Source of the DNA: Acidobacteriota bacterium
GTDB taxonomy: Bacteria > Acidobacteriota > UBA4820 > DSQY01
Assembly (NCBI GenBank): GCA_021813555.1
Contig: JAKAKG010000116.1
Location: 1-46,256 of the forward strand
Direction: 5' to 3'
DNA length: 46,256 nucleotides
Shown here: piece after piece, positions 189 to 41,802 of the stretch
Position numbering within the stretch: position 1 is the stretch's first letter
Layout of the letters: each line of letters opens with the position of its first letter
Notes under the pieces: model-generated
What the model was told of the DNA's origin: nothing
The model's input: the letters and a program-made list of their open reading frames with translations, nothing else
Database searches by the model: none
Made by a program: the position numbers and the translations under genes

Positions 189-998
189 ATGCCCATCATC
201 ACCATATCCCGGGGCTCATACTCTGGCGGGAAGGCGCTGGCCGAGTGCTTGGCCGGGCGCCTCGGGTACCGGCTGATCGACCGGGAAACGGTCATCGCCA
301 ACGCGGCGCTGTGCGGCGCTTCGGAGGAGAAGCTCCGCGGCGCCATCGTGGACCCGCCCGGGTTCTGGGACCATTTCAAAGAAGAAAAACGGCGCTACAT
401 GGTGCTGTTCCAGGCGTGCCTCGCCGAGGAGGCCCGCAAGGACGGCCTCATCTACCTGGGCAACGCGGGGCACCTTCTTCTGGGAGGCATAGCCCACGTG
501 CTTCGGGTGCGGGCCATCGCCCCCATGGCCAGCCGCCTGCGCATCGTTCAGGATGACCTTCACCTAAACCGCGAGGACGCGCTGGCGTACATCGAAAAGA
601 GAGACCAGGACAGGGCCAGGTGGACGCACTACCTCTACGGCGTGGATTGGAGCGACCCGGCCCTGTACGACCTCGTCATCAACCTGGAGCGGGCCACCGT
701 GGAGGAGGCGTGCGCGACGGTGACGGCCATGGCCAAGGAGCCCAGCTTCCAGGCCACCGCCGAGTCCTCGGACGCGATGGACAACCTGGCGCTTTGCAGC
801 CGCATCCACGCCATGCTCCTGAAGCACCCTGAAACGAAAGAGCTGCTGCTGGACGTGGAAGCCCATAAGGGATCCGTCGTGCTTCACGGCAAAGTCCGCA
901 ACCGCAAGCAATGGGACGAGGTGGAGGCGGTCGTCCGGCAGACGCCGGGCGTGGACCATCTCGCCATGGATGATCTCGTGCAGGTGCTGGATAGCTGA
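189..998 (+). CDS. Cytidylate kinase-like protein with C-terminal BON-like domain (CK1)
   Basis: A 269-residue protein that resembles the cytidylate-kinase-like P-loop family rather than true CMP kinase. The N-terminus ISRGSYSGGKALAE is a variant P-loop with its lysine kept. Further family landmarks are GNAGHLLL near the middle and DQDRARW before an LYG segment. The last 70 or so residues (VVLHGKVRNRKQW, TPGVDHL) look like a BON domain, a fold usually linked to membrane or ligand binding. The ATG at 189 is chosen over the ORF-track start at 147 because MPIITISRG aligns with paralogue CK4 (MAVVTISRG), which also has 269 residues, and because a purine-rich GGGGGTTAGGG precedes it. Substrate unknown. 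It is one of four paralogues in the window. Confidence 0.8.
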   Translation: MPIITISRGSYSGGKALAECLAGRLGYRLIDRETVIANAALCGASEEKLRGAIVDPPGFWDHFKEEKRRYMVLFQACLAEEARKDGLIYLGNAGHLLLGGIAHVLRVRAIAPMASRLRIVQDDLHLNREDALAYIEKRDQDRARWTHYLYGVDWSDPALYDLVINLERATVEEACATVTAMAKEPSFQATAESSDAMDNLALCSRIHAMLLKHPETKELLLDVEAHKGSVVLHGKVRNRKQWDEVEAVVRQTPGVDHLAMDDLVQVLDS

Positions 999-1051
999 CC
1001 GGGGCAACGCAAGGCGGCTTCACGTGTGATTGGCGACCGGGGGGTTGAGCC

Positions 1052-2527
1052 ATGGAAACGCCGCTGGGCATCGTTTCAAGCTCCACGCACTATCGCTGGT
1101 ACGTGCTCGGGACGGTGCTCATCGGGGCCTTCATGTCGGCCCTCGACGCGAGCATCGTCAACATCGCCCTGCCCGCCATCAACGTCAGCTATAACTCCCG
1201 GCTCGGCGTGGTGGAGTGGGTGTCCCTCTCCTACCTGCTCGCGCTCACCCTCATGCTGCCCGCCATGGGCCGTCTGGCCGACATGTTCGGGCGCAAGCCG
1301 CTCTACAACCTCGGCTTCGTGGTCTTCACCGTGGGATCCTACTTCTGCGGCTCCGCGCCCGGCATCGTGTCCCTCATCTTGTGGCGGGTGGTCCAGGCCA
1401 TGGGCGCGGCGCTCCTCCAGTCTAACAGCCTCGCGCTGATTACCCAGGTCTTCCCCGAGCGGGAGCGGGGGCGCGCCATAGGGATTCAGGGCGCGGTCCA
1501 GGCCGCCGCCATGTCCTTGGGGCCCTACCTGGGAGGCATGCTCGTCAAACACATCTCCTGCCAGGCCATCTTCTACGTGAACGTGCCCATCGGGATCGCG
1601 GGGACGATCGTGGCCCTGCTGGTGCTGCCCAAACCCGCGCCGCGCAAGGGCCCCGTGTCCATGGACTACGCCGGAGGCCTGGCCTTTTCGGTGGCCCTCG
1701 CCTCGCTCATGCTCGTGCTCACGCAGCTCACGGCCCACAACTGGGTTTCGGCCCACGCGGGCCTGCTCCTTTTCGTGGCCGCGGCCAGCTTCGTGGCCTT
1801 CTTCCTCATCGAACGGCGCACCGCCGAGCCATTCATCAAGCTGAGCCTCTTCAAGGAGCGGAACTTCACCATCGGCAACGTCTCGGGCATGCTCTCCTAC
1901 ATGGCCCTCTTCGCGCCCATGTTCCTGCTGCCCTTTTACCTTGAGAAGATTCTGAAGCTCGACCCGGAGAAGGCGGGCGTCCTCCTGACGCCCGTTCCCA
2001 TCGCCCTCTCCGTGGTCGCCCTTTTGAGCGGGTACTTCTCGGACAAGCTCGGCGTGCGGCTCTTCACCGTGGGCGGCATGGCGCTCACGGCGGTGAGCCT
2101 CTTCGCCTTGAGCACCCTCCACCACGATTCCACTCTTTTTGACGTGGTGTGGCGGCTCGCCCTCCTCGGCGTGAGCCTGGGGCTCTTCACGCCGCCCAAC
2201 AACCGCTCCGTCATGTGCGCCGCGCCGGAGGAGGATCTCAGCGTGGCCGGCGGGCTCCTCAACATGATGCGGAGCCTGGGCATGATGTGCGGCGTGGCCT
2301 TCGCCCAGATCATCTACAGCGTGGAGCTGCACGACCTTCTGGAGGTGGCGGCCCAGGATGCCGAGCCGGTCACCAAGCGGCTGCGCCACCACGACATGAT
2401 GATGAGCTTCGACAAGGTCTACTTCACCATGATCTTCGTGGCCCTCGTGGCGGCGGTCCTTTCCCTCGTGAAGGAGCGGGAAGAGCTGGCGGGCCGCAAG
2501 CACACCGACCTGCCCATGGAGTTCTAG
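1052..2527 (+). CDS. MFS transporter, DHA2 (EmrB/QacA-like) family
   Basis: A 491-residue integral membrane protein of the usual length for 14-helix drug:H+ antiporters. Family motif A is clear (GRLADMFGRK, after helix 2), and a motif-C-like GPYLGGM lies around residue 155. The N-terminus FMSALDASIVNIALP is the classic DHA2 first-helix signature. The gene starts 53 bases after CK1 behind GGGGGGTTGAG and is probably cotranscribed with it. Its TAG stop shares the palindrome CTAG with the stop of the convergent histidine kinase. The substrate cannot be told from sequence. Export of a toxic compound is the family role. Confidence 0.9.
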   Translation: METPLGIVSSSTHYRWYVLGTVLIGAFMSALDASIVNIALPAINVSYNSRLGVVEWVSLSYLLALTLMLPAMGRLADMFGRKPLYNLGFVVFTVGSYFCGSAPGIVSLILWRVVQAMGAALLQSNSLALITQVFPERERGRAIGIQGAVQAAAMSLGPYLGGMLVKHISCQAIFYVNVPIGIAGTIVALLVLPKPAPRKGPVSMDYAGGLAFSVALASLMLVLTQLTAHNWVSAHAGLLLFVAAASFVAFFLIERRTAEPFIKLSLFKERNFTIGNVSGMLSYMALFAPMFLLPFYLEKILKLDPEKAGVLLTPVPIALSVVALLSGYFSDKLGVRLFTVGGMALTAVSLFALSTLHHDSTLFDVVWRLALLGVSLGLFTPPNNRSVMCAAPEEDLSVAGGLLNMMRSLGMMCGVAFAQIIYSVELHDLLEVAAQDAEPVTKRLRHHDMMMSFDKVYFTMIFVALVAAVLSLVKEREELAGRKHTDLPMEF

Positions 2528-4050
2528 CAGGGGCGTTCGCCGAGGCCGGGGACCATGGCGGCGGGGAGGAGGACGGTGAAGGTGGTCCCCTCCTGGGGAG
2601 AGCTTTGGACGCGGATGTCGCCGCCGTGCTGGCGGACGATGCCGAGGCTGACAGAGAGGCCGAGGCCCGTGCCCTTGCCCTTGGATTTGGTGGTGAAGAA
2701 GGGGTCGAAGATGTAGGGCAGTACGTGGGGGGGGATGCCGTGGCCGTCGTCCGACACCCGCACGCTCACGTAGCCGGGATCTTCCTTGCCGCCGCCGGCG
2801 GAGATCCGCACGCTTCCGCCCTTCTGCACGGCGTCGAGGGCGTTGAGCAGGAGGTTCAGGAAGACCTGGCTGAGGGACTGCTTGTCTCCGTACACGGGGG
2901 GCAGGTTCTCGGGGATGTCCATGAGGATCTTGGCCCCCGTGAGCTTGATCTGGTTGGCGGCGAGCCCCGCCGTCCGGCGGAGGAGCTCGGCCATGTCCAG
3001 GCTCTCCGTCTCCATCTCGCCTTCGCGGGCGAAATCGAGGAGGTTCCTCACGATCTTCTGGGAGCGGCCCGCCTCGCCCACGAGGTCGTCCACCATCTCC
3101 AGGCGCTCCGCGTCGCTGAGGGTGGTGTAATCCTCCTTCAACATCTCGGCCGTGAGCATGATGTTGTTGATAGGATTGTTGAGTTCGTGCGCCACACCGG
3201 CGGTGAGGGTGCCCACGGCGCGGAGTTTGTGGGATTGAACCAGGATCTCCTGCCGGTGGGCCACCTCCCTCATCATGGTGTTGAGGGCCACGGCCAGATC
3301 TGAAAACTCATCCCTGTACTTTCTCGCGGGCGTGATGGGCGTGAAGTCGCCCGTGGCGATGCGCTGGGCCGTGGCCATGAGGCGGCTGAGGGGGCCGAGC
3401 ATCTGCCGCGCCAGAAAGTTCACGATGAAGGCCACCAGAAGCAGGAGGACGATGAGGAAGGCCACGGGCAGCCGCTTGAAAAGGGCGAGGGTCTGGTTGA
3501 CGCTGTTGCGCTCCTTCTGCGACAGCTCCATGGCGAAGGAGACCATCTGCGAGCCGTGGGCCCTCACCTCCACCTCCACGGCGGCCTGTTTGGCGGCCCG
3601 GTCCGCGGGGGCGTTCTTCTCCATCTCCACGAGGCTCTGGATCAGCGCCTCGTAGCGGTCCAGGTGGTCGCGCATGCGCCGCAGATCGGCGGCGGAGAGC
3701 ACCTTGAAGACCTCCGCCTCGGAGGAGCCCAGCAGTTTCCGCGCGTTGGCCACGTGCTCCTGCACGTCCTGAAGGTTCGTGCCGTAGAGAAAGTAGTTCT
3801 TCTCAAAGCGCCGTGCCTGCTGAATCTCAAGGGTGTAGCGGTCCGCCACCTCCAGGAACTTGAGGCGGACTTCGAGGCGGGAGAGCATGATCCAGGCGGC
3901 GGCGGTGACGGCGGCGGCGAGGAGGAAGAACGCCAAAAAACCCAGGGCGAGCCTCGCCCTGATGCCGAAGCTCGGCCGCTGCAAAAGGGCCTTTTCGGCG
4001 CTGCTCACCTCGCCCGGCTCGGGCGCACCCGTCAAGGATGGCTCCGCCAT
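2524..4050 (-). CDS. HAMP-domain sensor histidine kinase (HK1)
   Basis: About 508 residues. Two membrane segments (FLAFFLLAAAVTAAAWIML and LPVAFLIVLLLLVAFIVNFL) enclose a helical periplasmic sensor of about 150 residues. A HAMP linker follows, then a HisKA box with phospho-acceptor GVAHELNNP and an HATPase domain with its N box (NLLLNALDAV), DDGHGIPP and GKGTGLGLS. The ATG at 4050 is preferred because AAGGAG sits six bases upstream. The ORF-track start at 4149 runs into the preceding gene. It is the last gene of the minus-strand cluster. The single-domain regulator three genes upstream is the obvious candidate partner. The signal is unknown. Confidence 0.9.
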   Translation of the reverse strand: MAEPSLTGAPEPGEVSSAEKALLQRPSFGIRARLALGFLAFFLLAAAVTAAAWIMLSRLEVRLKFLEVADRYTLEIQQARRFEKNYFLYGTNLQDVQEHVANARKLLGSSEAEVFKVLSAADLRRMRDHLDRYEALIQSLVEMEKNAPADRAAKQAAVEVEVRAHGSQMVSFAMELSQKERNSVNQTLALFKRLPVAFLIVLLLLVAFIVNFLARQMLGPLSRLMATAQRIATGDFTPITPARKYRDEFSDLAVALNTMMREVAHRQEILVQSHKLRAVGTLTAGVAHELNNPINNIMLTAEMLKEDYTTLSDAERLEMVDDLVGEAGRSQKIVRNLLDFAREGEMETESLDMAELLRRTAGLAANQIKLTGAKILMDIPENLPPVYGDKQSLSQVFLNLLLNALDAVQKGGSVRISAGGGKEDPGYVSVRVSDDGHGIPPHVLPYIFDPFFTTKSKGKGTGLGLSVSLGIVRQHGGDIRVQSSPQEGTTFTVLLPAAMVPGLGERPC

Positions 4051-4060
4051 CATGAGCTCC

Positions 4061-4948
4061 TTACGGGCCGATGTCCGCGAAGCCGGAGTCTTTCTCCAGG
4101 ACCGCCGCGCGCTGCTTGAGGCGCGTGCTGGCCTTGCGGTAGCCCGCACCGCCGTAGATGACGAGCCAGACGCTCGCCAGGATGAGGGCGCCGTCGAAGA
4201 GGCTCCACCAGGAAAGGCCGAAGTACCTGAAGAGGCTGATGCCCAATGTCAGGAAGGCGAGGCCCGTGCGGACGAAGGCGAGGTAGGTCCGCCCCCACGC
4301 AAGGTCCGTCCGGTGCAGCGACAGCCGGGTACGCGTCTTGGCCCTGAGAGTGCGGTTCTCGGCCAGGTCGTTTCGTACTTGGGCCAGGTCCGTCCGCCGG
4401 ATGGAGAAGTCCGTTCGCTGCTCGGCCAGCTCGTTGCGCTTGGCGGCCATGTCCGTGCGGGCGGAGGACAAGCGCGTCCTGTTGTCGGCCATCTCCGTGC
4501 GCCGCTGGGCCTGGGCGGTGCGGTCCTCGGCGAGCCGGGTGCGCATCTGCGCCAGGTCCGTCCGCCCCTCCGCGAGGTGGGTGCGCCGCCGGGCCATGTC
4601 GGTCCGTCCCACGGCCAGGTCGGTCCGCTGGTTCGCCAGGGCCGTGCGCTCGCGGCCCAGCTCCGTCCGGATGTTGGCGAGTTCCGTGCTGCGCGTGGAC
4701 AGGCGCGTCTGCTCCCGCGTGAGGGCGGTCCGCTCCTGGGCCATGGCCGTCTGCTTTTCGGTGTGTTTGGCGGTGGACGAGGAAAAGGTCAGCAGGTTGC
4801 CGACCCCGTCGTCCATGTGCCGCGAGATCTCGTTGCCGGACTTGGCGAGATCGACCTGCGACTGCTCCGCGTCCACGGCCCTGGCGAGCAGGGATTCGAT
4901 CCGCTCGAGGGCCTCGCCCGGTTCTGCTCCGCTGCCTTCCCTGGCCAT
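4061..4948 (-). CDS. DUF202 membrane protein with about 23 heptad repeats
   Basis: 295 residues. Residues 1-65 are a charged helical region. From residue 73 to 227 the protein is a gapless 7-residue repeat of form R-T-x-L-A-x-x, with the arginine position recurring every 7 residues for 23 units. T at position 2 is replaced by N only twice. The last units (RTDLAWG, RTYLAFV, RTGLAFL) are the normal N-terminal signature of DUF202, and two membrane helices follow (about 226-245 and 251-268). The protein should be a long helical rod anchored in the inner membrane by its C-terminus. The start ATG has AGGAGG six bases upstream. It lies between CK2 and HK1 with small gaps, so it is probably in the same operon. 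Function unknown; a scaffold or sensor role is only a guess. Confidence 0.8.
   Translation of the reverse strand: MAREGSGAEPGEALERIESLLARAVDAEQSQVDLAKSGNEISRHMDDGVGNLLTFSSSTAKHTEKQTAMAQERTALTREQTRLSTRSTELANIRTELGRERTALANQRTDLAVGRTDMARRRTHLAEGRTDLAQMRTRLAEDRTAQAQRRTEMADNRTRLSSARTDMAAKRNELAEQRTDFSIRRTDLAQVRNDLAENRTLRAKTRTRLSLHRTDLAWGRTYLAFVRTGLAFLTLGISLFRYFGLSWWSLFDGALILASVWLVIYGGAGYRKASTRLKQRAAVLEKDSGFADIGP
4265..4753 (-). repeat. 21-bp in-frame tandem repeat coding RTxLAxx heptads
   Basis: The DNA encoding residues 66-228 of the DUF202 protein repeats every 21 bases. A GTCCGT- or GTGCGC-like core (plus strand) recurs in each unit, coding for the R-T or flanking residues. Units diverge at the DNA level while the protein pattern is kept, which suggests selection on the protein rather than very recent duplication. 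Confidence 0.85.
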
Positions 4949-4978
4949 GTGGGGCCTCCTACCCTTGGTTTCGATTCA

Positions 4979-5800
4979 TCAGGTGGTAAATTCCATGCTC
5001 GAAGGGCAGCCCGGCTCGTACTCCACGGCCGTCACCCCGGGCACAGCACTCACGATTTCCATGACCTCGGCGAGGGGGGCGTCCTCCAAATAGGGTCCCT
5101 CCAGCACCACGGCTCCTCCCCTGGCGCGGGCCCCCACTTCCAGCTCGTGGGTCCGGGGATCGCTCACCAGGGCCGCCTCCACGCGGGTGGCCAGGAACAG
5201 GTTCGCCATGGCCTCCATGGACTGGGGCGTGTGCTGGAACTCTTTCTCGCGCAGCGCGCCCACGATCATGTTGCAGATGGCGGGAACGGTGAGCCGGTCC
5301 AGGGAGAACCACGCGTCGTAGAGGTGCGGGTCCCTGATGTCGCACCCGTAGACGAACCGGGCCCAGCGGACCCGCTCCTCGTCCTCCTGGAGCACGGCCT
5401 CGCTCGCCTCCTCCTTGGACAGGTTGAGGCGCTTCATGGCGTTCTCCACCCGCCGCGCCTTGGTGGTCGTGATGCGGACCCTGAGGCAGCAGGAGAGGTT
5501 GGGCAGGAGCAGGTGGCCCGCGTGGCCGTGGTAGACCACGTTGCCCTCGCGCACGAACTCCAGCAGGGCCGACCGCATGAGGATCAGGTAAGACCGGCGC
5601 AGCCGGCTGAACTGCTCGTAGGCGCGGGTGGCGTGGTTCAGGCCGTCCACAACCTTCTTGGCCAGCTCCCCGCCCTGGGCATCAACCACCGCCACCAGGT
5701 CTTCACGGGAGACGGGGCGGAGGCTGAGCTGCTCGGAGAGGCACGCGGCCAGGTCGCGCCCTCCCGACATGGTTCCGCGTGAGATCAAGACGACTGCCAT
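4979..5800 (-). CDS. Cytidylate kinase-like/BON protein (CK2), altered P-loop
   Basis: 273 residues, paralogous to CK1 along its length. The N-terminus SRGTMSGGRDLAA replaces the P-loop lysine with arginine. The middle motif is HGHAGHLLL, and DEERVRW replaces DQDRARW. A BON-like C-terminal domain (AVVLEG, VPGVTAVEY) is kept. The start ATG follows AGGTGA at good spacing. It lies 56 bases after the receiver gene and 30 bases before the DUF202 gene. The weakened nucleotide site suggests a regulatory or binding role rather than catalysis, but this is inference. Confidence 0.75.
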   Translation of the reverse strand: MAVVLISRGTMSGGRDLAACLSEQLSLRPVSREDLVAVVDAQGGELAKKVVDGLNHATRAYEQFSRLRRSYLILMRSALLEFVREGNVVYHGHAGHLLLPNLSCCLRVRITTTKARRVENAMKRLNLSKEEASEAVLQEDEERVRWARFVYGCDIRDPHLYDAWFSLDRLTVPAICNMIVGALREKEFQHTPQSMEAMANLFLATRVEAALVSDPRTHELEVGARARGGAVVLEGPYLEDAPLAEVMEIVSAVPGVTAVEYEPGCPSSMEFTT

Positions 5801-5856
5801 GGGTCACCTGATGCCCGAAGGGGCCGGGGGCGGCGCCGCGCCGCGCGGTTCGCTCT

Positions 5857-6270
5857 TCAAGGGACGTCGGGCACCGCCGCGTGGGCGACGCCGTGGAAGC
5901 CCAGGGAGTCGGCGGCCTTGGCGATGACGTCCCGAAGCTCCTGGGGTTTGAAGGGCTTGGCGATGAAATCGAAGGCGCCCTTGGCCTCCGCCTCCCGGGC
6001 CATTTCCACGGTGGCGTAGCCGGTGATCATGATGACCCGGGTCTCCGGGTTGCGCTCCATGACCCGCTCCAGGACCTCGATGCCGTCCATGTCGTCCATG
6101 CGGATGTCCGTCACGACGATGTGGAAGGCCTTCTCCTTGAGGCGCTCCAGCGCGGGCCCGGGGGCCTCGAAAATCTCCACGTCGCATCCGATCTTGGCGA
6201 GGGCGGGCTGCAAGCGCCTGCCCACGATGGGCTCGTCGTCGAGCACCAGTACGCTCAGTCTCTCGTCCAT
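5857..6270 (-). CDS. Single-domain response regulator (receiver only)
   Basis: 137 residues comprising one receiver domain. The acidic pair is in LVLDDE, the phospho-acceptor aspartate in VVTDIRMDDMDG, the conserved T in MITGY and the lysine in AKPFKP. There is no DNA-binding or enzymatic output domain, so it must act through protein contacts, as CheY or Spo0F do. AAGGAGAG precedes the ATG by about six bases. HK1, downstream in the same run, is the likely kinase. Confidence 0.9.
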   Translation of the reverse strand: MDERLSVLVLDDEPIVGRRLQPALAKIGCDVEIFEAPGPALERLKEKAFHIVVTDIRMDDMDGIEVLERVMERNPETRVIMITGYATVEMAREAEAKGAFDFIAKPFKPQELRDVIAKAADSLGFHGVAHAAVPDVP

Positions 6271-6284
6271 GTGCGCTCTCCTTG

Positions 6285-6307
6285 GGAGGCGCCCTTTCGG
6301 GGCCTCC
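6285..6307 (-). other. GC-rich hairpin between permease 1 and the receiver gene
   Basis: GGAGGC pairs with GCCTCC around a short inner stem and a CTTTC loop, just after the permease stop codon. No T-run follows on the minus strand, so it may be a processing or attenuation site rather than a full terminator. Confidence 0.35.
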
Positions 6308-7419
6308 TACGGCTCTCCGGCGGTGGTCCTGACGAGCAGCGTGGCGTGGACCCTCCGCCGCTCCAGGGTGGCCTTCACCACGTGATAAAGCACCAGCGCC
6401 GCGCCTCCGATGCCCGCCGCGAACAAGATGGCGGTGCTTCCCCCCTTGAGCCAGGGGACCCACGCCTCGCTGAAATTCAGTTTGCCCATCTCCCGCAGGT
6501 ACACGGGCACGGCCACGGCCCGGCTCAGCACGGCCAGGAGGATGATGCTGCTCGACACCATCCTCACCAGGACCTCCTTGACCACCTTCGTGCCGTAGGC
6601 CCCGATGTAGACCCCCAGGAGGGAGCCGATGAGGAGGAGGCAGGAGAGGCGCAGGTCCACGAAGCCCTGGTAGGCGTAGCTGATGGCGCCCCAGGCGCCG
6701 CCGAACATGGCCATGAAGAGCTCGCTCCCCGTGGCCACGGTCGTGGGAACCCCGAAGAGGTAGATCATGGCCGGAACGCCCACGAAGCCTCCGATGGCCA
6801 CGGTGCCGTCCAGGTAGCCCACCAGGAGCCCCAGGCCCAGGACGAGCCAGAGGGACACCCGCACGTCCGCCACGGGGAAGTGCACGTAGGGAGGGAGGGG
6901 CAGCTTGGAGAAGAAGTTGGCCAGCTTCATGGAAGGCCCCGCGCCTTCCTTGGAATCGGGGCTGCGGAAGGCGTCCCGCAGCATGAAGGCGCCCACCAGG
7001 GTGAGGACGCCGATGAACACGACGCTGATGTACAGGTTGGACACGGCCCCGCTTCCCGAGCCTTCGCCGTGCCCCTCTCCTCCGCCGCCGAGATTGAAGA
7101 GCTTGCTGTTGATCCAGACGGCGAGCTGGACGCCCGCCAGCGCCGTCACGAGGAGGAAGATGGAGAGTTTCTTGTCCACGTTGCCCAGGCCCGCGTGCCG
7201 CTTGGCGCCCATCATGTTGTTGCCAAAGCGGTGCGCCATGTTGCTGCCCACGGCCACGACGCCGGGGACGCGGAGGTTCATCATGCCGGGCGTCATGATG
7301 AAGGCCGCCCCGCTTCCCGTGAACCCGCTGAGGATGCCTCCCACGAGGCCCAGCAGGACCAGGGCCAGGGCGTTGCCCCAGGTGAGCTGGATGAAGATGC
7401 CGCCGATCAAATGAGACAT
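6307..7419 (-). CDS. TauE/SafE family permease 1 (sulfite-exporter type)
   Basis: 370 residues with about eight to nine membrane helices in the two-fold internal repeat typical of TauE/SafE. The two repeat signatures are GGILSGFTGSGAAFIMTPGM near the N-terminus and GYLDGTVAIGGFVGVPAMI in the second half. A loop of roughly 60 residues, rich in Gly and Ser, lies between helices in the first half. Family members export sulfite, sulfoacetate or other organosulfonates, or move sulfur anions. Next to dsr genes, sulfite or thiosulfate is the natural guess. It sits 21 bases downstream of CK3 and ahead of the receiver gene. Confidence 0.85.
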   Translation of the reverse strand: MSHLIGGIFIQLTWGNALALVLLGLVGGILSGFTGSGAAFIMTPGMMNLRVPGVVAVGSNMAHRFGNNMMGAKRHAGLGNVDKKLSIFLLVTALAGVQLAVWINSKLFNLGGGGEGHGEGSGSGAVSNLYISVVFIGVLTLVGAFMLRDAFRSPDSKEGAGPSMKLANFFSKLPLPPYVHFPVADVRVSLWLVLGLGLLVGYLDGTVAIGGFVGVPAMIYLFGVPTTVATGSELFMAMFGGAWGAISYAYQGFVDLRLSCLLLIGSLLGVYIGAYGTKVVKEVLVRMVSSSIILLAVLSRAVAVPVYLREMGKLNFSEAWVPWLKGGSTAILFAAGIGGAALVLYHVVKATLERRRVHATLLVRTTAGEP

Positions 7420-7440
7420 GGTTCTCTCCCCCCCATCCCG

Positions 7441-8946
7441 TCAATCCATCTTGAGCCATTTCATCATGGACGCTAACACCGATCCGTACAGGAACGCGAT
7501 GACCGGAGCCATGAGGGCCACGAGGACCGCGGCGAACCAGGGAGCGGCCTTGTGGGCCGGCCCCCCGAGCAGATCGATGAGCTTGTCCTGCCACAGGAAG
7601 ACCCCGCAGTAGATGAGCACCACGAGCACGCCCGCCACGGCCCCTCTGGCCACTTCTCGGCCGCCGAGGTGCAGCTTGGCGGCCAGGTCGGCGGTGGAGA
7701 GCACGGGCGCCTTCACGTGGTCGCCCAGGAACATGCTCAGCTCCCGGACCAGGCGGGTGCGGGTGGCGGGGGGCTTGTCGAGGAAGAGGTCGCCCAGCAC
7801 CACGAGGCTGTAGGGGATGCTCGGGCTGATCACGGCGGAGAGCCGGTCGCGGCTGCCCGAGACGCGCTGGCCGCCGCCGGAGCGGCCCTCGTGGACGAGC
7901 GCCTCCAGGGTCTCCTGGAAGGACTTTTCCTCGGAGGAGGGCCGGGCCTCCGGCACGTCGTCCTCCACGCCGCCCGTGCGCGCCTCCATGGCGGCGGACC
8001 GCCCTACGGCCACGGCCACGGCGTCCGAGGGCGCGTCGCCGGGCTTGTACTGGAGGAGCTCCACGGCGGCCCCCCAGCGGCGGGCCAGCTCGTTCACCTC
8101 CCGGAAAGTCTCCGAATCGGGCTTGAACGCCTCCTGGATCCAGAGCACGTTGGTGCTGGCCATGGTGCAGCGGATCTCCCGGCAGCCGGGAAGGTCCCCC
8201 ACCGCGTCCGAGATGAGGGACGCGGCCCTGGCCTGAAGGGGCACGTAGGTGATGGTCAGCACCCCGTCGTTGGCCCGCACCGTGAGATCCACGTCGGCCG
8301 TGCGGTCGTCCAGGGAGAGCTTGATGCGCGCCTGGGCCTGGAGGAACCGGTCCTGCATGGCCCGCTGGCTCGCCGGAGTGGGCCTGAAATCGGGGAGCTC
8401 GGCGACGCCGCAGAGGGCCGTGGCGGCGTTCTCCAGGTTCAGGTTCTCCAGGTTGGCCACGAAGTCGTACATGCGCGAGTCGTCCATGTCGATGCCGTGG
8501 ACGAAGCGGACCCAGGCGAGGATGTCGCCGTCGATGTCCCTGAGAAACTTCTCCGCCTTCTCGCGGCTCAGCTTGAGGCGGGTCATGACGGTTTCCACCC
8601 GCTGGCCGTGCTCGGGCAAGACGTGGAGCCTGAGCACGTGGCTCACGCCGGGCAGCAGGCGGTGTCCCGCCCTGCCGTAGTAGACCAGGTTGCCGTCCTG
8701 CGCCTTCTCGCAGATGGTGGCCGTGGCCACGGCCAGGTAGCGGTCTTTCAGCCGGGCCATGCGCTCCTGGACCGAGGGCCGCTTCACCATGGCCACTTCC
8801 AGCTTGCCCACCGGAATGCCGGCCTCGTTCGCCCGGGCCACCACGTCTTCCCGGCTCATGTAGCCATAGCCCAGCTTCTGCGCAAGGCTCTTGGCCACCC
8901 TTTCCCCACCGCTGAACGGAACGCTGCAGATAAAGATGATTGGCAT
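7441..8946 (-). CDS. CK-like/BON protein with USP-like region and membrane tail (CK3)
   Basis: 501 residues from the ATG at 8946 (MPIIFICS). The ORF-track start at 9120 would overlap the PEPS1 stop and lacks homology to the paralogues. The first 260 residues match CK1/2/4 (YYGRAGHRLL, then a BON-like part), but the P-loop reads SVPFSGGERVAK, with glutamate for lysine, and the DxDR motif has become DGDILAW. Residues 270-440 contain VLWIQEAFKPD and YSLVVLGDLFLD, which recall a universal-stress-protein fold (tentative). The end has two membrane helices (VLVVLIYCGVFLW and AAVLVALMAPVIAFLYG). It is probably a membrane-tethered pseudo-kinase. Neighbours are PEPS1 upstream and permease 1 downstream. 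Confidence 0.7.
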   Translation of the reverse strand: MPIIFICSVPFSGGERVAKSLAQKLGYGYMSREDVVARANEAGIPVGKLEVAMVKRPSVQERMARLKDRYLAVATATICEKAQDGNLVYYGRAGHRLLPGVSHVLRLHVLPEHGQRVETVMTRLKLSREKAEKFLRDIDGDILAWVRFVHGIDMDDSRMYDFVANLENLNLENAATALCGVAELPDFRPTPASQRAMQDRFLQAQARIKLSLDDRTADVDLTVRANDGVLTITYVPLQARAASLISDAVGDLPGCREIRCTMASTNVLWIQEAFKPDSETFREVNELARRWGAAVELLQYKPGDAPSDAVAVAVGRSAAMEARTGGVEDDVPEARPSSEEKSFQETLEALVHEGRSGGGQRVSGSRDRLSAVISPSIPYSLVVLGDLFLDKPPATRTRLVRELSMFLGDHVKAPVLSTADLAAKLHLGGREVARGAVAGVLVVLIYCGVFLWQDKLIDLLGGPAHKAAPWFAAVLVALMAPVIAFLYGSVLASMMKWLKMD

Positions 8947-9064
8947 AAGGTCCCCCAGACTCCCCGACCCCTCCGCCCGTTTCGGCCCGCCCCCAGGCGT
9001 GCCCCCCGGTTCCGCGGCGGCCTTCCGAAGCACCGCTCGCGTACCAACGCGCCCTACAAACCCG

Positions 9065-11644
9065 TCACGTGCGGCGCGGCGCCGGCCGCGGCTGCGTGGT
9101 GACGGCCGCCCCCTCCGCACCCTCCGCCAGAAACCCGTAGTTGCCTTCCACGAACTGCTTCACGTACCACTTCATGGCGTGTTCGCCCCCCATGTACATG
9201 TCGAGCTGGCCCGCCGACGCCAGGAGGCGGCCCACGATGTCGAGCTTGGCCTCCGTTTCCTGCGCCGATCCTTTCTTGAACCAGGCGTTCACGATGTCGC
9301 CCCGGCGTTCGGCCTGAAATCCGTAGTGGCAGAGACATGCCTCGATGAAGCAGGCCCGCAGGATCCTTCGCGACCGGCTGGCCCCGCCTCCCGCGAAACG
9401 GAAGGAGATGTAGTTGTTGTTGGGCACGGCCGAGACGCAGGCATCCACGAGCGAGTAGTGGTAGGCGAGGCGGGAGTTGAGGTTCATGTATTCGTCCGCC
9501 ACGAGAAGGTAGCTCTTGTCGCCGAGGGGCCGCTGGGCCGAGTGGGACGAGAAGGAGCTGGCCATGACGGAGGCGATCCCCGCGAGGCTGGCGGCCATGT
9601 CCCGGTTCCAGCTCACGCCGGGATGGCTCGCGCCCCTCCAGAGGGCTTGAAAGGGCCGCGAGACGATGTGTTCGGGGCGAACGTCCGTGGATGAGGGATC
9701 GTCCATCACCAGCCCTCCGCCCAGGTCGAGGACGTGAAGGTTGACGGGAATCGGGGCCACCAGGCGCTTGGCACATCGCGGCCCCCGCTCCAGCTCCACG
9801 TCGTTCACCGCGAACATGGCCTCGATGGCCTTTTCGTGGCAGTAGCGCAGCACGTCGTGGGCCGATTTGCACCCCGAGGGGCGGAAGCTGAAGGCCGCCG
9901 GGTCCACGAGGTGCAGGGTGAGGAAGCGCCCGCTGATGGGGTCGGCGTCCCTCCGCGCATACCGATCGGGCAAGGCCACCTCCCCCTCCTTCCGGGGCCA
10001 GCGCAGTCCTTCGTACAGTCTGGGTTGGACCGCGTCCAGGCTCACGGCGTCATCGGGCTTGATCGTATCAAAGACGTCCTTCATCTGGAAGACGGAGGGG
10101 ACCTTGAACTCCCTCAGCAGGGCAGCGCCGTGTCCCGTCACGTTTCCCCCCTCGGCCACGAGGCCCACGATGCGGGGGAAGACCTTCACGATCTCGGGCG
10201 AAGGGCGGCGCATGACCAGCAGCGCCCCTTGGGGCGTTTTGCTTAGATCCTGCACGTCTTCCACGAGGAAGGCACGCCCCGAGGCCCGTCCCGGATAGAC
10301 GGTCTGGCCGCCGGCGAGAAGCGGTGCCCCCCGGGTCCGCACCTTCTGGCGCGCCTTGGGGTCGGCCAGGGACAGGGGCCGGGTCTGGACGATCCAGAGG
10401 TTGCCCTCCTCGTCCAGGAGCCACTCCACGTCCTGGGGCGCGTTGAAGTGGGCCTCCAGGTGCACGGCCCACTCGGCGAGAACTTGGAGGTCCTCGGTCT
10501 GAAGGCTGGGGGCCGAGGCTTCGTCCGGGCTCGCCTGCTCCCGGGTCAGCCCCCCGCCGGGCATGGGGAGGAGGCGCCCTTCCTTGCGCGCGATCCGCCG
10601 TTCCATGACCGTGTGGCCGCCCCGCCTGGAAACCACGAAAAGGTCCGCCGCGGTCTGTCCGCTGGCTACGTCTAAGGCCAGCCCCCTGGTGGCCGCGATC
10701 CACGCCGAATCCTTCCCCGGATCGCCCGGGTCGCGGGTGTACATGATGCCTGAAGCCCGTGCCCGGAGGGTGGGCATGAAGAGGACGGCCATGGGGCTGT
10801 CCACTTCCATCCGCCCCGTGCTGACCCGGTACGACAGGGCGCGCGCGCTGAAGCGGCTGGCCACCACGCGCTTATACGCTTCCGTGACTCCCGCCGGGGC
10901 CACGTTGATGAGGCTCAGGAACTGGCCCGCGAAGGTGCCCGTCCCCCCTTCGCCCACGGCGCTCGAACGGACGGCCAGCCCCAGCCCCCCCGTCTCCAGC
11001 GCCGCGGCCCGCTCGCTCACGGCCACTTCCACCGCCCTGGGCAGGTCCGCCGCCATGACGAGGGCCGACAGCCGGGCCGAGGCCTCCTGGAAGCCCTGAA
11101 GCTCGTCCAAATCCAGGCCTTCCACGGTGTCCCTGATGTGCTTCCACAGGGGGACGCCGCAGAAGCGCCAGTAGGATTCCGTGGTGATGACGAACCCTTC
11201 GGGAACGGGGAGCCCGAGCCTGTTCTTGACCTCCCCCAAAGCCGCCGCCTTGCCTCCCGCCTCTGGCGCGGCTTCCGCGCCGATCTCGTGGAGCCAGACG
11301 GAGAGGCGCGGCGAGACCAGCGCCTGCCGCGCGGCGACGGAACCTTCCACGTCCCGGCGCTGGGAGGCGAGAGCCTTCCAGAGGACCGGCTGGCGCTCCC
11401 CCTCCAGCCGTTCCAGGGCGGCCACGGCCCCCTCGGCCTTGTCAAAGACGGCGGGCACGCGGTCCCCCAGCACGTCCGCCCTCGGAGGGGCATAGCGAAG
11501 ATCTTCCTGAAGCCCCGCCAGGAGTTCCAGGCAGTCGTTGTTGAGGGTGAGCAGCTCTTTGAAGCTGCCGTACTTCTCCCGGACTCTCGTTTCGGCGGGA
11601 GCCGCCGCGGCAGGCTCCTTCCCTTTGCGCCACCATGCACTCAT
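9065..11644 (-). CDS. PEP synthase/PPDK-like phosphotransferase without PEP barrel (PEPS1)
   Basis: 859 residues. An N-terminal helical region (about 25-120) is followed by the ATP-grasp domain of the pyruvate phosphate dikinase type: KAAALGEVKNRLGLPVPEGF at 132-151, AVRSSAVGE near 224 and DVEWLLDEEGNLWIVQTRP near 405-423. The swivelling phosphohistidine domain follows, with GHGAALLREF and the candidate catalytic His at about 505. The final 300 residues are an unrecognised domain shared with PEPS2 and are not the PEP/pyruvate TIM barrel. The layout recalls rifampin phosphotransferase, where the third domain binds a different acceptor. Acceptor unknown. It sits between the TIGR02186-like gene and CK3. 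Confidence 0.75.
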   Translation of the reverse strand: MSAWWRKGKEPAAAAPAETRVREKYGSFKELLTLNNDCLELLAGLQEDLRYAPPRADVLGDRVPAVFDKAEGAVAALERLEGERQPVLWKALASQRRDVEGSVAARQALVSPRLSVWLHEIGAEAAPEAGGKAAALGEVKNRLGLPVPEGFVITTESYWRFCGVPLWKHIRDTVEGLDLDELQGFQEASARLSALVMAADLPRAVEVAVSERAAALETGGLGLAVRSSAVGEGGTGTFAGQFLSLINVAPAGVTEAYKRVVASRFSARALSYRVSTGRMEVDSPMAVLFMPTLRARASGIMYTRDPGDPGKDSAWIAATRGLALDVASGQTAADLFVVSRRGGHTVMERRIARKEGRLLPMPGGGLTREQASPDEASAPSLQTEDLQVLAEWAVHLEAHFNAPQDVEWLLDEEGNLWIVQTRPLSLADPKARQKVRTRGAPLLAGGQTVYPGRASGRAFLVEDVQDLSKTPQGALLVMRRPSPEIVKVFPRIVGLVAEGGNVTGHGAALLREFKVPSVFQMKDVFDTIKPDDAVSLDAVQPRLYEGLRWPRKEGEVALPDRYARRDADPISGRFLTLHLVDPAAFSFRPSGCKSAHDVLRYCHEKAIEAMFAVNDVELERGPRCAKRLVAPIPVNLHVLDLGGGLVMDDPSSTDVRPEHIVSRPFQALWRGASHPGVSWNRDMAASLAGIASVMASSFSSHSAQRPLGDKSYLLVADEYMNLNSRLAYHYSLVDACVSAVPNNNYISFRFAGGGASRSRRILRACFIEACLCHYGFQAERRGDIVNAWFKKGSAQETEAKLDIVGRLLASAGQLDMYMGGEHAMKWYVKQFVEGNYGFLAEGAEGAAVTTQPRPAPRRT

Positions 11645-11772
11645 GGCCTAACTGTCCCACGTCCCGGTCCTGAGCGCCAGCGCGCGGGCGTGGTGGACCC
11701 AGGGCCCGTTCCGCGGACGTGCGCGGGAGACCGAGGGGCGGAGCGGAGGGCGGAGGACACGGCGGCCCGTCA

Positions 11773-12570
11773 TCAGTGGCCCGCCAGATTCCTCTTGCCG
11801 AACCTGGCCATGATGAAGTCGATGCCGAAGCCGGCCACCATGGCGATGAGAACGCACAGCATCCCGTAAAGGTAGACCCGGTTCTTGGCAAGGGCGGCGA
11901 TTTTTTCGGGGAGGCCCGTCTCCCGCACCTCCAGCCGGGCCGTCGTTTTCGTGGCCACGAGGCCGTCCCGGCACTCGTAGGCGGTGACGTCGTAGAGGGC
12001 CGGGGGCGCCTTCCTGGACCAGGGGAGGTCCAGGACGAAGGGGACGCCGCCGGGGCCGGGAGTTCCGAGCTTCACGGCACCCTCCACCTCTTTGTAGAAC
12101 CCTTGCTGGCTTTTGAGGGAGAGGTAGTTGTCGCGGATCGTCTCCTGATCCATGGCCTTGGGCTCCACGAGCATCTGGGCCTTGATGGCGGCGTCGTCGA
12201 GCTGGTCCTGGCTGAGGGATTCGCGGGTGAGCATGTCCTTCACGGGGCCGCTCGAGTAGCGCAGGAAGAGGGAGGGAACGCCCGAGATCGAGACGTGCCC
12301 CACGTTGACCCAGACGGGACCGAAGCGCCCCTTCTTGTTGAAGGCCTCCGCCGCCTCGGGCCCGCGGACCACCACCAGGACCTGGGCCCCCGGGGCCACG
12401 GTCCCTTCCACCTTCAGGCTCGCCCCGCCGTAGAGTGCCCCCATGTCCACCACGGCCGGTGTCACGCTGAGGCCCGGCGAGCCGCCCTGGACCGAAGCCA
12501 CCGCCAGGGGAACCATGGCCGAGGAGATCAACAGGCCCGCCACCATCAGTATCCACGTTCGGCGTCGCAT
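11773..12570 (-). CDS. TIGR02186-like membrane-anchored periplasmic protein
   Basis: 265 residues with an N-terminal signal or anchor (WILMVAGLLISSAMVPLAVA), a beta-rich periplasmic body, and a C-terminal membrane helix (YLYGMLCVLIAMVAGFGIDFI) ending in a short basic tail. The segment LSVTPAVVDMGALYGGASLKVEG and the phrase VLVVVRGP match my memory of the TIGR02186 putative transmembrane family, which is often coded beside TauE/SafE permeases. The start at 12570 lies two bases after the stop of permease 2, which supports translational coupling and a joint function. The longer ORF (to 14337) is read-through of the upstream gene in another frame. Confidence 0.75.
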   Translation of the reverse strand: MRRRTWILMVAGLLISSAMVPLAVASVQGGSPGLSVTPAVVDMGALYGGASLKVEGTVAPGAQVLVVVRGPEAAEAFNKKGRFGPVWVNVGHVSISGVPSLFLRYSSGPVKDMLTRESLSQDQLDDAAIKAQMLVEPKAMDQETIRDNYLSLKSQQGFYKEVEGAVKLGTPGPGGVPFVLDLPWSRKAPPALYDVTAYECRDGLVATKTTARLEVRETGLPEKIAALAKNRVYLYGMLCVLIAMVAGFGIDFIMARFGKRNLAGH

Positions 12571-12572
12571 GG

Positions 12573-13487
12573 TCAGTGCCCCTTCGCGTAAGAGAGCAGG
12601 CTGGAGGGCGTGAGCACCAGCCCGACGGCCATTTTCACCATCACCAGCAGCACGATGGAGGCCAGGAGGATCTTGAGCTGGTCGCCCCGCAGGCGCTTGC
12701 CCGCCCGGGCCCCGATCTGGGCGCCGATGGTGGAGCCCACCATGAGCAGGATGGCCAGAACGATGTCCACCGTGTGGTTGGTGACGGCCTGCATAAAGGT
12801 CACCCCGGCGCAGGTGAAGAGGATCTGGAAGAGGTCCGTGCCCACCGCCACGTGCATGGGCATCCTCAGGAGGTAGACCATCATGGGCACCATGATGAAC
12901 CCGCCGCCCACGCCCATGATGGCGGCCAGGATACCCACGAGGGTGCACAGCAGGAAGGGCACGAAGACCGAGTGCTGGACGCCCGACCGGGGGAAGCTCA
13001 TCTGGAGGGGCAGCTTGGCCAGAAGGCTCCCCCTTTTGGCCGAAGAATGGGGCTTCCCCGTCATGGTGCCTCGCCGAAGGCTCTGGAGGCTCTCCACGAA
13101 CATGTAGCTGCCGATGCTGCCCAGCACCACGATGTAGGTCACCACGATGACGAAGTCGGCGTTCCCCAGGCTGCGGAGGATCTTGATGATCTGGACGCCG
13201 ATGGCGGCGCCCACGAGTCCGCCCACGAGGAGGATGCTGCCGAGCTTGAGATCCACGTTCCCGAGCCGGAAGTGGGCCGCGGCCCCGGAGGCGGAGGCCC
13301 CCACGATCTGGCAGGAATCGGAGGCGGCGGCCACGGTGGGCGGGATGCCCACCATCATGAGGATGGGCGTGAGGAGAAACCCTCCGCCTACGCCGAAGAG
13401 GCCCGAAAGAAACCCCACGAGGGCCCCCACGCCCACGAGGAGAAAGAGGTCGATACTTACACCCGCGACTGGAAGAAAGATCGTCAT
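12573..13487 (-). CDS. TauE/SafE family permease 2
   Basis: 304 residues, eight or so membrane helices, and both halves of the family repeat are textbook: GFLSGLFGVGGGFLLTPIL and AAIMGVGGGFIMVPMMVY. A cytoplasmic loop with basic residues (TGKPHSSAKRG) divides the halves. It resembles the sulfite-exporter branch more closely than permease 1 does. It is coded between CK4 and the TIGR02186-like partner. Anion exported unknown. Sulfite or another sulfur oxyanion is inferred from context. Confidence 0.88.
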   Translation of the reverse strand: MTIFLPVAGVSIDLFLLVGVGALVGFLSGLFGVGGGFLLTPILMMVGIPPTVAAASDSCQIVGASASGAAAHFRLGNVDLKLGSILLVGGLVGAAIGVQIIKILRSLGNADFVIVVTYIVVLGSIGSYMFVESLQSLRRGTMTGKPHSSAKRGSLLAKLPLQMSFPRSGVQHSVFVPFLLCTLVGILAAIMGVGGGFIMVPMMVYLLRMPMHVAVGTDLFQILFTCAGVTFMQAVTNHTVDIVLAILLMVGSTIGAQIGARAGKRLRGDQLKILLASIVLLVMVKMAVGLVLTPSSLLSYAKGH

Positions 13488-13583
13488 GCCCCCCCCGAGA
13501 TCCTCTTAAAGAATCCACCCCTGGCCCTAGTCCCCCGCCGCCCGACGGCGGCGCGCCACCCGCCACGACGGTTGTATCTCCTC

Positions 13584-14393
13584 CTACAGGTCCGGCACCT
13601 GGACGAGCCCGTCCAAATCCACGGTCCGCCCCGCCGCGGCCTTTTCGGCGACGGTCCGCACGTCGTTCAACTGCGCCGCGCCCCGCACCTTCCCCTGGAT
13701 GGCCACGGTGCCGCCCTGGGCCGAGACGTCCAGCTCCAGGTCCGCGGTGGACGGACTGCACACGAGATTGGCCCTCACCTTGCTGGCAACCGCCAGGTCC
13801 TCCATGGCGGCCATGGACTGGGGCGTCTCCTGGAAGCAGGTCTGCCCGGCCATGGCCACGATCGTTTCGCACGCGTCCCGGATGTCCATGGACTCCAGGT
13901 TGAGCACCACGTCGTACAGGGTCGGATCGCCCCAGTTGACACCGTAGAGGTACTGGCTCCACTTGGCCCGGTCCTGGTCCACCCTCGCGATGTAGGCGAA
14001 CGCTTCGCTGCGGCTCACCTTGAGCGTGTCCTGGATGGCCCTCGCCCGCAGGTCCACGGGGGCGATGATGCGCGCCCGCAGAACGTGGCTGACCCCCCGA
14101 AGGAGCAGGTGGCCCGCGTTGCCGTGGTAGACCGCCTTGCCCGCCCGCACTTCTTCGGTGAGGGCGGCTTGGATCAGGGTCAGGTAGATGTACTTGCTGT
14201 GCCTGAACCGGTCCCAGAAGGAGGGAGGCTTTTCGAGCGCGTTGCGGAGCTTCTCCTGGGAGGCGCCGTACACGGCGCCCCGCTCCACGATCACGTCCCG
14301 GTCGATGCAGCGGTAGCCCAGCCGCTCGGCGAGGCACTCCGCCAGGCGCTTGCCCCCCGTGAAGGAACCCCTCGAGATGGTGACGACGGCCAT
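13584..14393 (-). CDS. Cytidylate kinase-like/BON protein (CK4)
   Basis: 269 residues, the closest paralogue of CK1 in length and motifs: SRGSFTGGKRLAE (P-loop lysine kept), HGNAGHLLL, DQDRAKW, LYG, and a BON-like end (TVAIQGKVRGAAQ). The start at 14393 is fixed by alignment of MAVVTISRG with CK1. The ORF-track start at 14681 overlaps the opposite gene dsrN. It is the first gene of the ten-gene minus-strand run, divergent from dsrN across 82 bases. If any paralogue is catalytic, CK1 and CK4 are the likely ones. The substrate is not known. Confidence 0.8.
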   Translation of the reverse strand: MAVVTISRGSFTGGKRLAECLAERLGYRCIDRDVIVERGAVYGASQEKLRNALEKPPSFWDRFRHSKYIYLTLIQAALTEEVRAGKAVYHGNAGHLLLRGVSHVLRARIIAPVDLRARAIQDTLKVSRSEAFAYIARVDQDRAKWSQYLYGVNWGDPTLYDVVLNLESMDIRDACETIVAMAGQTCFQETPQSMAAMEDLAVASKVRANLVCSPSTADLELDVSAQGGTVAIQGKVRGAAQLNDVRTVAEKAAAGRTVDLDGLVQVPDL

Positions 14394-14411
14394 CGGATTT
14401 CCCCCTCGCTC

Positions 14412-14420
14412 TGGTACAAT
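14412..14420 (+). promoter_or_regulatory. Extended -10 promoter candidate for dsrN
   Basis: TGGTACAAT is a good extended -10 (TGn plus TACAAT), about 55 bases before the dsrN ATG. No clear -35 is seen. It lies in the 82-base divergent gap with CK4. Confidence 0.45.
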
Positions 14421-38742: not shown

Positions 38743-39297
38743 ATGCGCAGACCGAGGCTGAGGGCGGCTGTAAAGTTCTTTTTCTGGGCCGCGGCGACGT
38801 TGGTGGTATTCACCTACGCCATCCATTTTTACAGGTCCGGAAAGATGGTGCACTGGTACTACTACAAGGCCAAGGCCGACGGGTTCGCCGTCAACACCAA
38901 GACATTCGCGGACGCCTCGCCGGAGAAGCCCGCCTCGCTCGCGGTGGGCGACTTCAAAATCCTGGACGGCCTCAAAGCCACACCCGTCAAAGCGGGCGAC
39001 ATACTGCCCGCGGAGACCACGGGGGTCATCGACCTCCGAACCGTGGAGGACGGGAAGCGCGTTCGGCTCAGGGGCGACCGCCTCGACATTCTGGTCCCCT
39101 GGCAATTCAAGGAGGCCAAGGGCTTCAAATACAAGGATTCGTTCACGCACAAAAACATCAAGACGAACCCCGTCTCGGGGGTCTGGAACCTCGTGATGGT
39201 GGGCCTTATCGGCCTGTGCCTGGGCTACCTCGCGGAGGGCTTCACGGACTTCATCGGCCTGAAATTCAAGAAGATCGACCATACGGTCGGCCACTGA
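38743..39297 (+). CDS. Two-TM membrane protein preceding permease 3
   Basis: 184 residues. One N-terminal membrane helix (FFFWAAATLVVFTYAIHFY), a soluble, probably periplasmic middle part of about 110 residues with beta-like composition (KRVRLRGDRLDILVPW), and a C-terminal helix (VWNLVMVGLIGLCLGYLAEGF). I do not recognise the family. GGAGG lies just before the ATG at 38743; the longer ORF has no site. It is 15 bases before permease 3, so it is probably its partner, as the TIGR02186-like protein is for permease 2. Confidence 0.7.
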   Translation: MRRPRLRAAVKFFFWAAATLVVFTYAIHFYRSGKMVHWYYYKAKADGFAVNTKTFADASPEKPASLAVGDFKILDGLKATPVKAGDILPAETTGVIDLRTVEDGKRVRLRGDRLDILVPWQFKEAKGFKYKDSFTHKNIKTNPVSGVWNLVMVGLIGLCLGYLAEGFTDFIGLKFKKIDHTVGH

Positions 39298-41801: not shown

Positions 41802-41802
41802 G

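Follow-up and report, generated by a model that had tools for sequence, protein, structure and literature searches.

The window analysed here, a 46,256-nucleotide contig of an acidobacterial MAG, carries a gene module on both sides of a sat/apr/qmo/dsr sulfate-reduction island, and we propose, with a probability slightly above one half, that this module, under the control of a histidine kinase and a receiver, works as a phosphotransfer switch on sulfur-oxyanion permeases in dissimilatory sulfur metabolisers. Pfam scans found every gene kind that a sequence-only reading of the same DNA had named: four PF13189 CK-like proteins, three TauE/TSUP permeases, two PEPS-like proteins, two histidine kinases and three receiver-only regulators. 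Only some of these genes fall in the interval to which that reading had assigned the module, 189-14393; the others lie at 38803-46254, inside the second interval that it had also named (38743-46256). To its inventory we add the proteins P10 and P35, a DUF202-like protein and two conserved proteins of 67 and 223 aa at 40519-41383.

The first part of the module opens on the plus strand with CK-BON protein 1 (189..998; PF13189 116 bits, BON 35 bits), directly followed by an MFS transporter (1052..2527), a pairing seen again in genomes G003, G006 and G018. All further genes of this part lie on the minus strand: the histidine kinase HK1 (2524..4008, the start possibly at 4149; HAMP, HisKA and HATPase by Pfam); the DUF202-like coiled-coil membrane protein (4061..4948) and CK-BON protein 2 (4979..5800; PF13189 76 bits, P-loop Lys changed to Arg), which are also paired in G003, G006, G084 and G261; the receiver-only regulator RR1 (5857..6270); permease TauE-b (6307..7419); a CK-like protein with C-terminal transmembrane segments (7441..8946; PF13189 81 bits, P-loop Lys changed to Glu); PEPSc1 (9065..11644; PPDK_N and PEP-utilizers); the membrane protein P10 (11773..12556), assigned to the PF09608 type through its homologues, the window copy having no Pfam match of its own; permease TauE-a (12573..13487); and CK-BON protein 3 (13584..14393; PF13189 118 bits, P-loop Lys kept).

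The second part is encoded on the plus strand, where the small membrane protein P35 (38803..39297) stands 5' of permease TauE-c (39313..40389). A MoeA_N match to the open reading frame at 38557-39297 scored 18.6 bits against a cut-off of 30.8 and was judged spurious. There follow the 67-aa protein with two transmembrane segments (40519..40722), a gene for 67 aa also occupying the equivalent place in G244, L133 and L139; the 223-aa protein with one predicted transmembrane segment (40712..41383), whose gene overlaps that of the 67-aa protein; RR2 (41397..41801); HK2 (41803..43473; dCache, HisKA and HATPase); RR3 (43481..43885); and PEPSc2 (43882..46254), truncated by the contig end. The three permeases match PF01925 at 119-165 bits, above the Pfam gathering cut-off. 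We found no RNA features or tRNAs in the window, and a PADLOC search for anti-phage defence genes gave no match.

We call the PEPS-like proteins PEPSc. Like PEP synthase/pyruvate, water dikinase (PDB 8a8e, 2ols), they have an ATP-grasp domain followed by a phospho-histidine mobile domain and keep the catalytic residues (K132, R226, E407, Q420, R422 and H505 are conserved in 105/105 PEPSc sequences), but an unassigned C-terminal domain (about residues 560-840 in PEPSc1) stands in place of the PEP/pyruvate TIM barrel. The loss of the barrel, together with scores of 233 and 281 bits against the cut-off of 740 for the NCBIfam PEP synthase equivalog, rules out an ordinary PEP synthase. The C-terminal domain had no Pfam match in any of 90 members, no PDB profile match and no Foldseek match at E <= 0.001; its AlphaFold model reached a pLDDT of 87 with 90 sequences (68 with 11). 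Its invariant residues include H596, D597, R600, H603 and G671 in PEPSc1 numbering. Rifampicin phosphotransferase is likewise an ATP-grasp and phospho-histidine enzyme whose acceptor is not pyruvate; its domain order, however, is ATP-substrate-His, whereas that of PEPSc is ATP-His-acceptor. PTS enzyme I and PTS-Ntr offer a functional analogy only, as phospho-histidine proteins that control transporters; PEPSc differs in having an ATP-grasp rather than a PEP domain, a receiver/histidine-kinase input and no HPr-like partner that we could see. A plasmid search with a Desulfocapsaceae PEPSc returned partial matches only (at most 56% of the query), and those among the matches listed that bore an annotation were labelled as ordinary PEP synthases.

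Several observations connect PEPSc to the two-component proteins. The window receivers (134-141 aa) are single-domain proteins, and Pfam scans bore out the claim that none of the three has an output domain. The receiver gene described as translationally coupled to a PEPS gene is that of RR3, whose stop shares 4 nt with the start of PEPSc2 (TTGA, 43882-43885). Among 92 non-redundant PEPSc genes, 29 directly adjoin a receiver-only gene, with several overlaps of 4 nt, and at one locus (L166:4849-7806) the two are fused into a single protein of 985 aa, a PEPSc carrying Response_reg at its C terminus. We infer a route in which a membrane histidine kinase of the HAMP or Cache type would pass phosphate to a receiver-only protein, which would act directly on PEPSc. 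PEPSc would use ATP to phosphorylate its conserved histidine, probably releasing AMP as members of the PEP synthase family do, and hand the phosphate to an acceptor held by the C-terminal domain; the phosphorylated product would then switch on or gate the neighbouring anion permease, which we suggest is TauE/TSUP with its PF09608-type partner in the window and DASS or SulP in other loci.

PEPSc occurs in 17 of 396 Acidobacteriota genomes, of which 16 carry aprA and the remaining one, which is incomplete, carries dsrA; it occurs in 69 of 176 Desulfobacterota genomes, 64 of them with dsrA. Sulfur-respiring bacteria from two phyla account for nearly all occurrences of the module, and the expected tie of its homologues to sulfur metabolism was upheld. 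The gene neighbourhood is kept between genera, between families and between phyla, and it recurs beyond chance: for non-redundant acidobacterial PEPSc genes, the share with a given neighbour no more than three genes away was 45% for receiver-only genes (background 4%), 47% for TauE (2%), 36% for CK (0%) and 17% for sulfate-reduction genes (0%). For high-GC comparison loci, genes were called with a codon model taken from the window. Unrelated regulatory and transport genes might instead have moved horizontally with the sulfate-reduction island and share no function. In favour of this, an IS1595-type transposase (37530-38507) lies at the island's flank as the modules do, and the closest relative has the same arrangement. 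Such hitch-hiking is already disfavoured and we consider it very improbable: the module recurs in Desulfobacterota with its own gene order and away from sat, apr and dsr, a receiver fusion exists, three transporter families are paired with the module, and it is genetically coherent in Desulfovibrio.

PEPSc could alternatively be a metabolic enzyme of sulfate activation that handles the AMP and PPi released by Sat and APS reductase, through a PPDK-like reaction (AMP + PPi + X-P -> ATP + Pi + X) or its reverse. The CK-like proteins would then be AMP kinases, the permeases would bring in sulfate and the two-component proteins would tune flux. The lack of a structural relative for the acceptor domain makes a metabolic acceptor as possible as a regulatory one, and the intact ATP-grasp and histidine machinery fits this reading too. 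Five acidobacterial loci (L073, L076, L082, L084 and L176) have a contiguous qmo-sat-CK-TauE-PEPSc order, and aprBA lies upstream of it wherever the contig is long enough; a membrane H+-pyrophosphatase gene adjoins PEPSc at two loci (L133 and L167). Most Desulfobacterota PEPSc loci, however, are not beside sat or apr (sulfate-reduction neighbours 0-5%), genomes of that phylum carry up to 12 PEPSc copies, which is odd for a pathway enzyme, and P-loop or acceptor residues are altered in several CK copies. Desulfovibrio PEPS transposon mutants, moreover, grew on lactate-sulfate with identical kinetics with and without nitrate (PMC4001038). We regard this metabolic role as unlikely, if worth keeping in view.

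Returning to the proposed switch, the CK-like proteins appear to be peripheral to it. All four exceed the PF13189 (Cytidylate_kin2) cut-off of 28 bits (76-118 bits) and so share that fold family, but they are fused to BON or transmembrane segments, vary at the P-loop Lys and, at 19-30 bits, do not reach the NCBIfam (d)CMP kinase equivalog (102 bits). Their description as four CK-like/BON paralogues held for the CK-like part in all four and for the BON part in three: BON (PF04972) passes the Pfam cut-off only in the protein at 189-998 and is weak in two others (19.5 and 19.7 bits), and in the protein at 7441-8946 Pfam detected no BON and the C terminus has hydrophobic segments instead. Among the 396 Acidobacteriota genomes CK-BON shows the same restriction as PEPSc, and CK lies near 0 of 39 non-acidobacterial PEPSc genes. 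CK-BON is therefore an acidobacterial addition outside the core module, and the idea of a CK-PEPS pair is weaker than that of a receiver-PEPS-permease unit. These proteins are most likely nucleotide-sensing or membrane-anchoring partners, with putative kinase activity; in Acidobacteriota they may form an added layer reporting the AMP/ATP state that results from sulfate activation.

The link to permeases extends beyond TauE. The share of PEPSc genes with a TauE, DASS or SulP gene no more than eight genes away, DASS and TauE being assigned at family level only, is 83% in Acidobacteriota and 46% elsewhere (background 4%); roughly every second non-acidobacterial gene lacks a recognised permease in that range. 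A PEPSc-HK-RR-CBS unit is accompanied by SulP-STAS in L181 and by a Na+:sulfate symporter in L080. SulP is absent from the window's own genome (98.6% complete) and from the relatives tested (G001, G003, G005, G006, G018 and G244), an absence that would allow TauE to be the importer. One survey recorded TSUP permeases, with no function assigned, in each of its 44 sulfate reducers (PMC5840216).

The Desulfovibrio 'nitrate cluster' (DVU0245-DVU0251/Dde_0597-0605) also unites TauE, a histidine kinase, a response regulator, a PEPS-like protein and a phosphatase (Korte et al. 2014, PMC4001038). Like the window, it groups TauE, a small hypothetical protein, a histidine kinase, a receiver-only regulator and a PPDK_N/PEP-mobile-domain protein. 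Unlike the window, where no DSP/PTP phosphatase gene lies beside a PEPS-like gene, it contains a DSP-type phosphatase as well as a periplasmic protein resembling PtxB, and it has neither CK-BON nor a reported apr/sat link; a phosphatase does adjoin Desulfobulbaceae PEPSc. DVU0246, at 744 aa, is shorter than PEPSc and is likened to it by published annotation only. Mutants of DVU0246, 0247, 0250 or 0251 all resist 100 mM nitrate, so that loss of TauE, receiver or PEPS has the same effect; the DVU0245 phosphatase mutant does not resist it, but that of D. alaskensis G20 does, which spoils a simple kinase/phosphatase antagonism (PMC4001038). This placing of TauE, receiver and PEPS-like genes in one pathway, together with the exchange of TauE for DASS or SulP in related PEPSc loci, strengthens the tie to sulfur-oxyanion transport. 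The phospho-signalling or metabolite-phosphorylation system tied to such transport that the sequence-only reading inferred is supported in part, its CK-PEPS pairing less so.

The same genetics could mean that what the module senses and transports is not respiratory sulfate but an inhibitor, or else an electron acceptor used in place of sulfate (thiosulfate, sulfite or nitrate-like oxyanions), its restriction then reflecting niche. G20 cluster mutants are mildly sick on thiosulfate, and Korte et al. proposed a leaky thiosulfate transporter (PMC4001038); the Cache-domain kinase also suggests extracellular ligand sensing. Its position directly beside sat and apr in Acidobacteriota and the pairing with SulP or a Na+:sulfate symporter nevertheless point to sulfate, as does the absence of SulP from the window's genome, and we hold this alternative to be quite improbable.

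More tentatively, and with clearly less confidence than in the switch itself, we suggest that the module may belong to a class of transporter control that has gone unrecognised among sulfur-respiring bacteria, where an ATP-driven phospho-histidine enzyme with a new-fold C-terminal domain is commanded by a histidine kinase and a single-domain receiver and gates sulfur-oxyanion permeases of unrelated structure (TSUP, DASS or SulP), with CK-BON as a nucleotide-sensing layer in Acidobacteriota. The C-terminal domain of PEPSc is widespread, though it has neither a Pfam family nor a relative in the PDB, and PEPSc with CK-BON forms a marker pair for sulfur-respiring Acidobacteriota. The module would also explain the Desulfovibrio cluster, which is poorly annotated and without which souring bacteria become resistant to nitrate. 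In two phyla it is a dsrA-linked candidate for controlling how sulfate reducers take up and meter their sulfate.

Pfam searches confirmed every gene kind that the sequence-only reading had named on both sides of the sulfate-reduction island: CK-like (PF13189)/BON proteins, TauE/SafE permeases, PEPS-like proteins (PEPSc), histidine kinases and receiver-only regulators. Its four CK-like/BON paralogues are all CK-like; BON was clear in one and weak in two, while the fourth (7441..8946, -) gave no BON match and has C-terminal transmembrane segments instead. The P-loop lysine is missing in several copies of the PF13189 + BON proteins (CK-BON). Members overlooked by that reading are a PF09608-type membrane protein beside TauE, a DUF202-like protein and, within the right-hand set, small membrane proteins that are conserved. 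The window copy of the first has no Pfam assignment; its homologues at loci L033, L115 and L166 match PF09608 at 138-146 bits. The DUF202-like protein (4061-4948, -), with a long RT-x-L-A heptad-like repeat run and then two transmembrane segments, pairs with CK-BON 2, and pairing with CK-BON recurs in other genomes.

Both PEPSc copies (PEPSc1, 9065..11644, -; PEPSc2, 43882..46254, +, cut by the contig end) have PPDK_N and PEP-utilizers domains ordered as in PEP synthase; the PEP/pyruvate barrel of that enzyme, however, is absent from both, its place being taken by a ~300-residue domain with 40% identity between the two. Aligned against solved PEP synthases, the ATP-grasp residues K132, R226, E407, Q420 and R422 and the phospho-histidine H505 are invariant in 105 homologues. 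A separate set of residues (H596, D597, R600, H603, P633 and G671) is invariant in the C-terminal domain, which matched Pfam in 0/90 members; its profile matched no PDB sequence, and its AlphaFold model (mean pLDDT 86.6) matched no PDB fold at E <= 0.001. Given these invariant residues and the unmatched C-terminal domain, PEPSc is likely active as an ATP:histidine phosphotransferase and likely carries a new acceptor domain.

That receiver and PEPSc belong together is strongly indicated: a receiver immediately adjoins PEPSc in 29 of 92 non-redundant cases, the two reading frames overlap in the window (43882-43885), and genome G244 encodes a 985-aa PEPSc-receiver fusion.

Compared with 270 background genes taken from acidobacterial regions picked arbitrarily, module neighbours of PEPSc are strongly enriched. 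Another genus of the same family (L027/L028, L038) retains the left-hand order (CK-BON, TauE, PF09608-type, PEPSc, the CK-like protein with transmembrane segments, TauE, receiver, kinase). The right-hand order (the small membrane protein at 38803..39297, +, then TauE, a 67-aa protein, kinase, receiver, PEPSc) is repeated at L167 of G244 and at L133 and L139 of two 'Deltaproteobacteria' MAGs, whose PEPSc group with PEPSc2 with full support. G244 also holds several right-hand-type modules with apr/qmo/dsr in one >50 kb stretch of a single contig (L166-L168); on its contig C6 (L168), dsrA seems to be broken into two frames (140 + 237 aa), possibly an assembly frameshift. Desulfobacterales loci L115 and L116 read TauE, kinase, PF09608-type, PEPSc, two receivers, kinase; in Desulfobulbaceae and Desulfocapsaceae, PEPSc precedes a DSP-type phosphatase, sigma-54 regulator, kinase and single receiver, the DSP/PTP-type phosphatase lying directly 3' of PEPSc (L131:10827-11795 and relatives).

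The contig (C224, 46256 bases) belongs to a 98.6% complete, 3.3-Mb genome, identified through named relatives as an acidobacterial MAG, whose nearest relative among named genomes, also in the tree, is 'Acidobacteria bacterium BP8.bin17'. Its island (~14.4-36.9 kb) carries sat, dsrPOJKM, dsrC, dsrD, dsrBA, qmoCBA and aprAB, named by homology; NCBIfam models confirmed the DsrA and AprA assignments. A CobB/CbiA-like amidotransferase protein at its edge (14359-15882, +) is probably DsrN (siroheme amidase), because its homologues lie inside or adjoin dsr clusters in G018 and G084; within the dsr cluster, an oxidoreductase like the glutamate-synthase small subunit (23372-25033, -), conserved in the relatives examined, is likely a DsrL-type protein. 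An IS1595-type transposase (37530-38507, +) sits between aprB and the right-hand module, as in the closest relative, G001; in G007 it adjoins CK-BON.

PEPSc distribution follows sulfur metabolism. Among 100 relatives it is confined to genomes with a dsrA match (one a fragment). Across 396 Acidobacteriota genomes it occurs in 17, spanning six families; 16 carry aprA (Fisher p about 3e-22, phylogeny uncorrected), and the one remaining genome, 67% complete, has a dsrA fragment. Two families (f8, f28) contain both states, PEPSc presence following aprA within each. CK-BON (>200 bits, a threshold placed at the score gap) occurs in 24/396, including every acidobacterial PEPSc genome, and was not found at non-acidobacterial PEPSc loci; 20 of the 24 have aprA, the others being G079 (with dsrA), the incomplete G002, and G122 and G264 from G079's family. 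In Desulfobacterota, 69 of 176 genomes encode PEPSc and 64 of these have dsrA, against 23 of 107 lacking PEPSc (p about 3e-22, phylogeny uncorrected); dsrA is present in 41/44 genomes underlying the named loci. Three Desulfobacterota (G486, G397, G479) carry 9 to 12 PEPSc copies each, an expansion reminiscent of those of sensory families.

A sulfate-type permease lies within 8 genes of 83% of acidobacterial PEPSc, 46% of other PEPSc and 4% of background genes. The unit PEPSc, kinase, receiver, CBS protein accompanies SulP-STAS in L181 and a Na+:sulfate symporter in L080, a strong clue that the paired transporter can be exchanged; symporter genes also occur in PEPSc loci L121 and L180. Of the SulP, DASS, CysP and SulT families, the search covered SulP and found none in the window's genome or six module-bearing relatives; TauE may therefore import sulfate there.

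By published annotation, the poorly annotated Desulfovibrio cluster DVU0251-DVU0245 has a nearly identical parts list: TauE, hypothetical, PtxB-like, kinase, receiver, PPDK/PEP-mobile-domain protein and DSP phosphatase (Korte et al. 2014, PMC4001038), this last beside the PEPS-like gene as in Desulfobulbaceae and Desulfocapsaceae. There, transposon mutants in 0246 (PEPS), 0247 (receiver), 0250 and 0251 (TauE) grew equally well whether or not 100 mM nitrate was added, unlike the phosphatase mutant, and G20 cluster mutants were mildly sick on thiosulfate; Korte et al. suggested a leaky thiosulfate transporter. The shared phenotype would place receiver and PEPS either ahead of the permease or acting jointly with it. 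The main texts, as searched, of a sulfate-transporter survey (PMC5840216), a dsrAB genome survey (PMC10591310) and a peatland Acidobacteria study (PMC6018796) mention neither cytidylate-kinase nor PEPS.

The main rival is metabolic: the module would handle the AMP and PPi from sulfate activation. It is still viable because of sat/apr contiguity and the H+-pyrophosphatase genes nearby, which are suggestive because sulfate activation yields PPi. In other Acidobacteriota (L073, L076, L082, L084) the left-hand order takes a compacted form behind the genes for sulfate activation (qmo, sat, CK-BON, TauE, PEPSc, TauE, PF09608-type), and a membrane H+-pyrophosphatase lies beside PEPSc modules at L133:11561-13669 and L167:1-1392. 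Our best reading is a switch, in which the histidine kinase would signal through the receiver and PEPSc to the permease; the outcome would be phospho-control over the uptake of sulfur oxyanions, to which CK-BON may add a nucleotide-sensing layer in Acidobacteriota.
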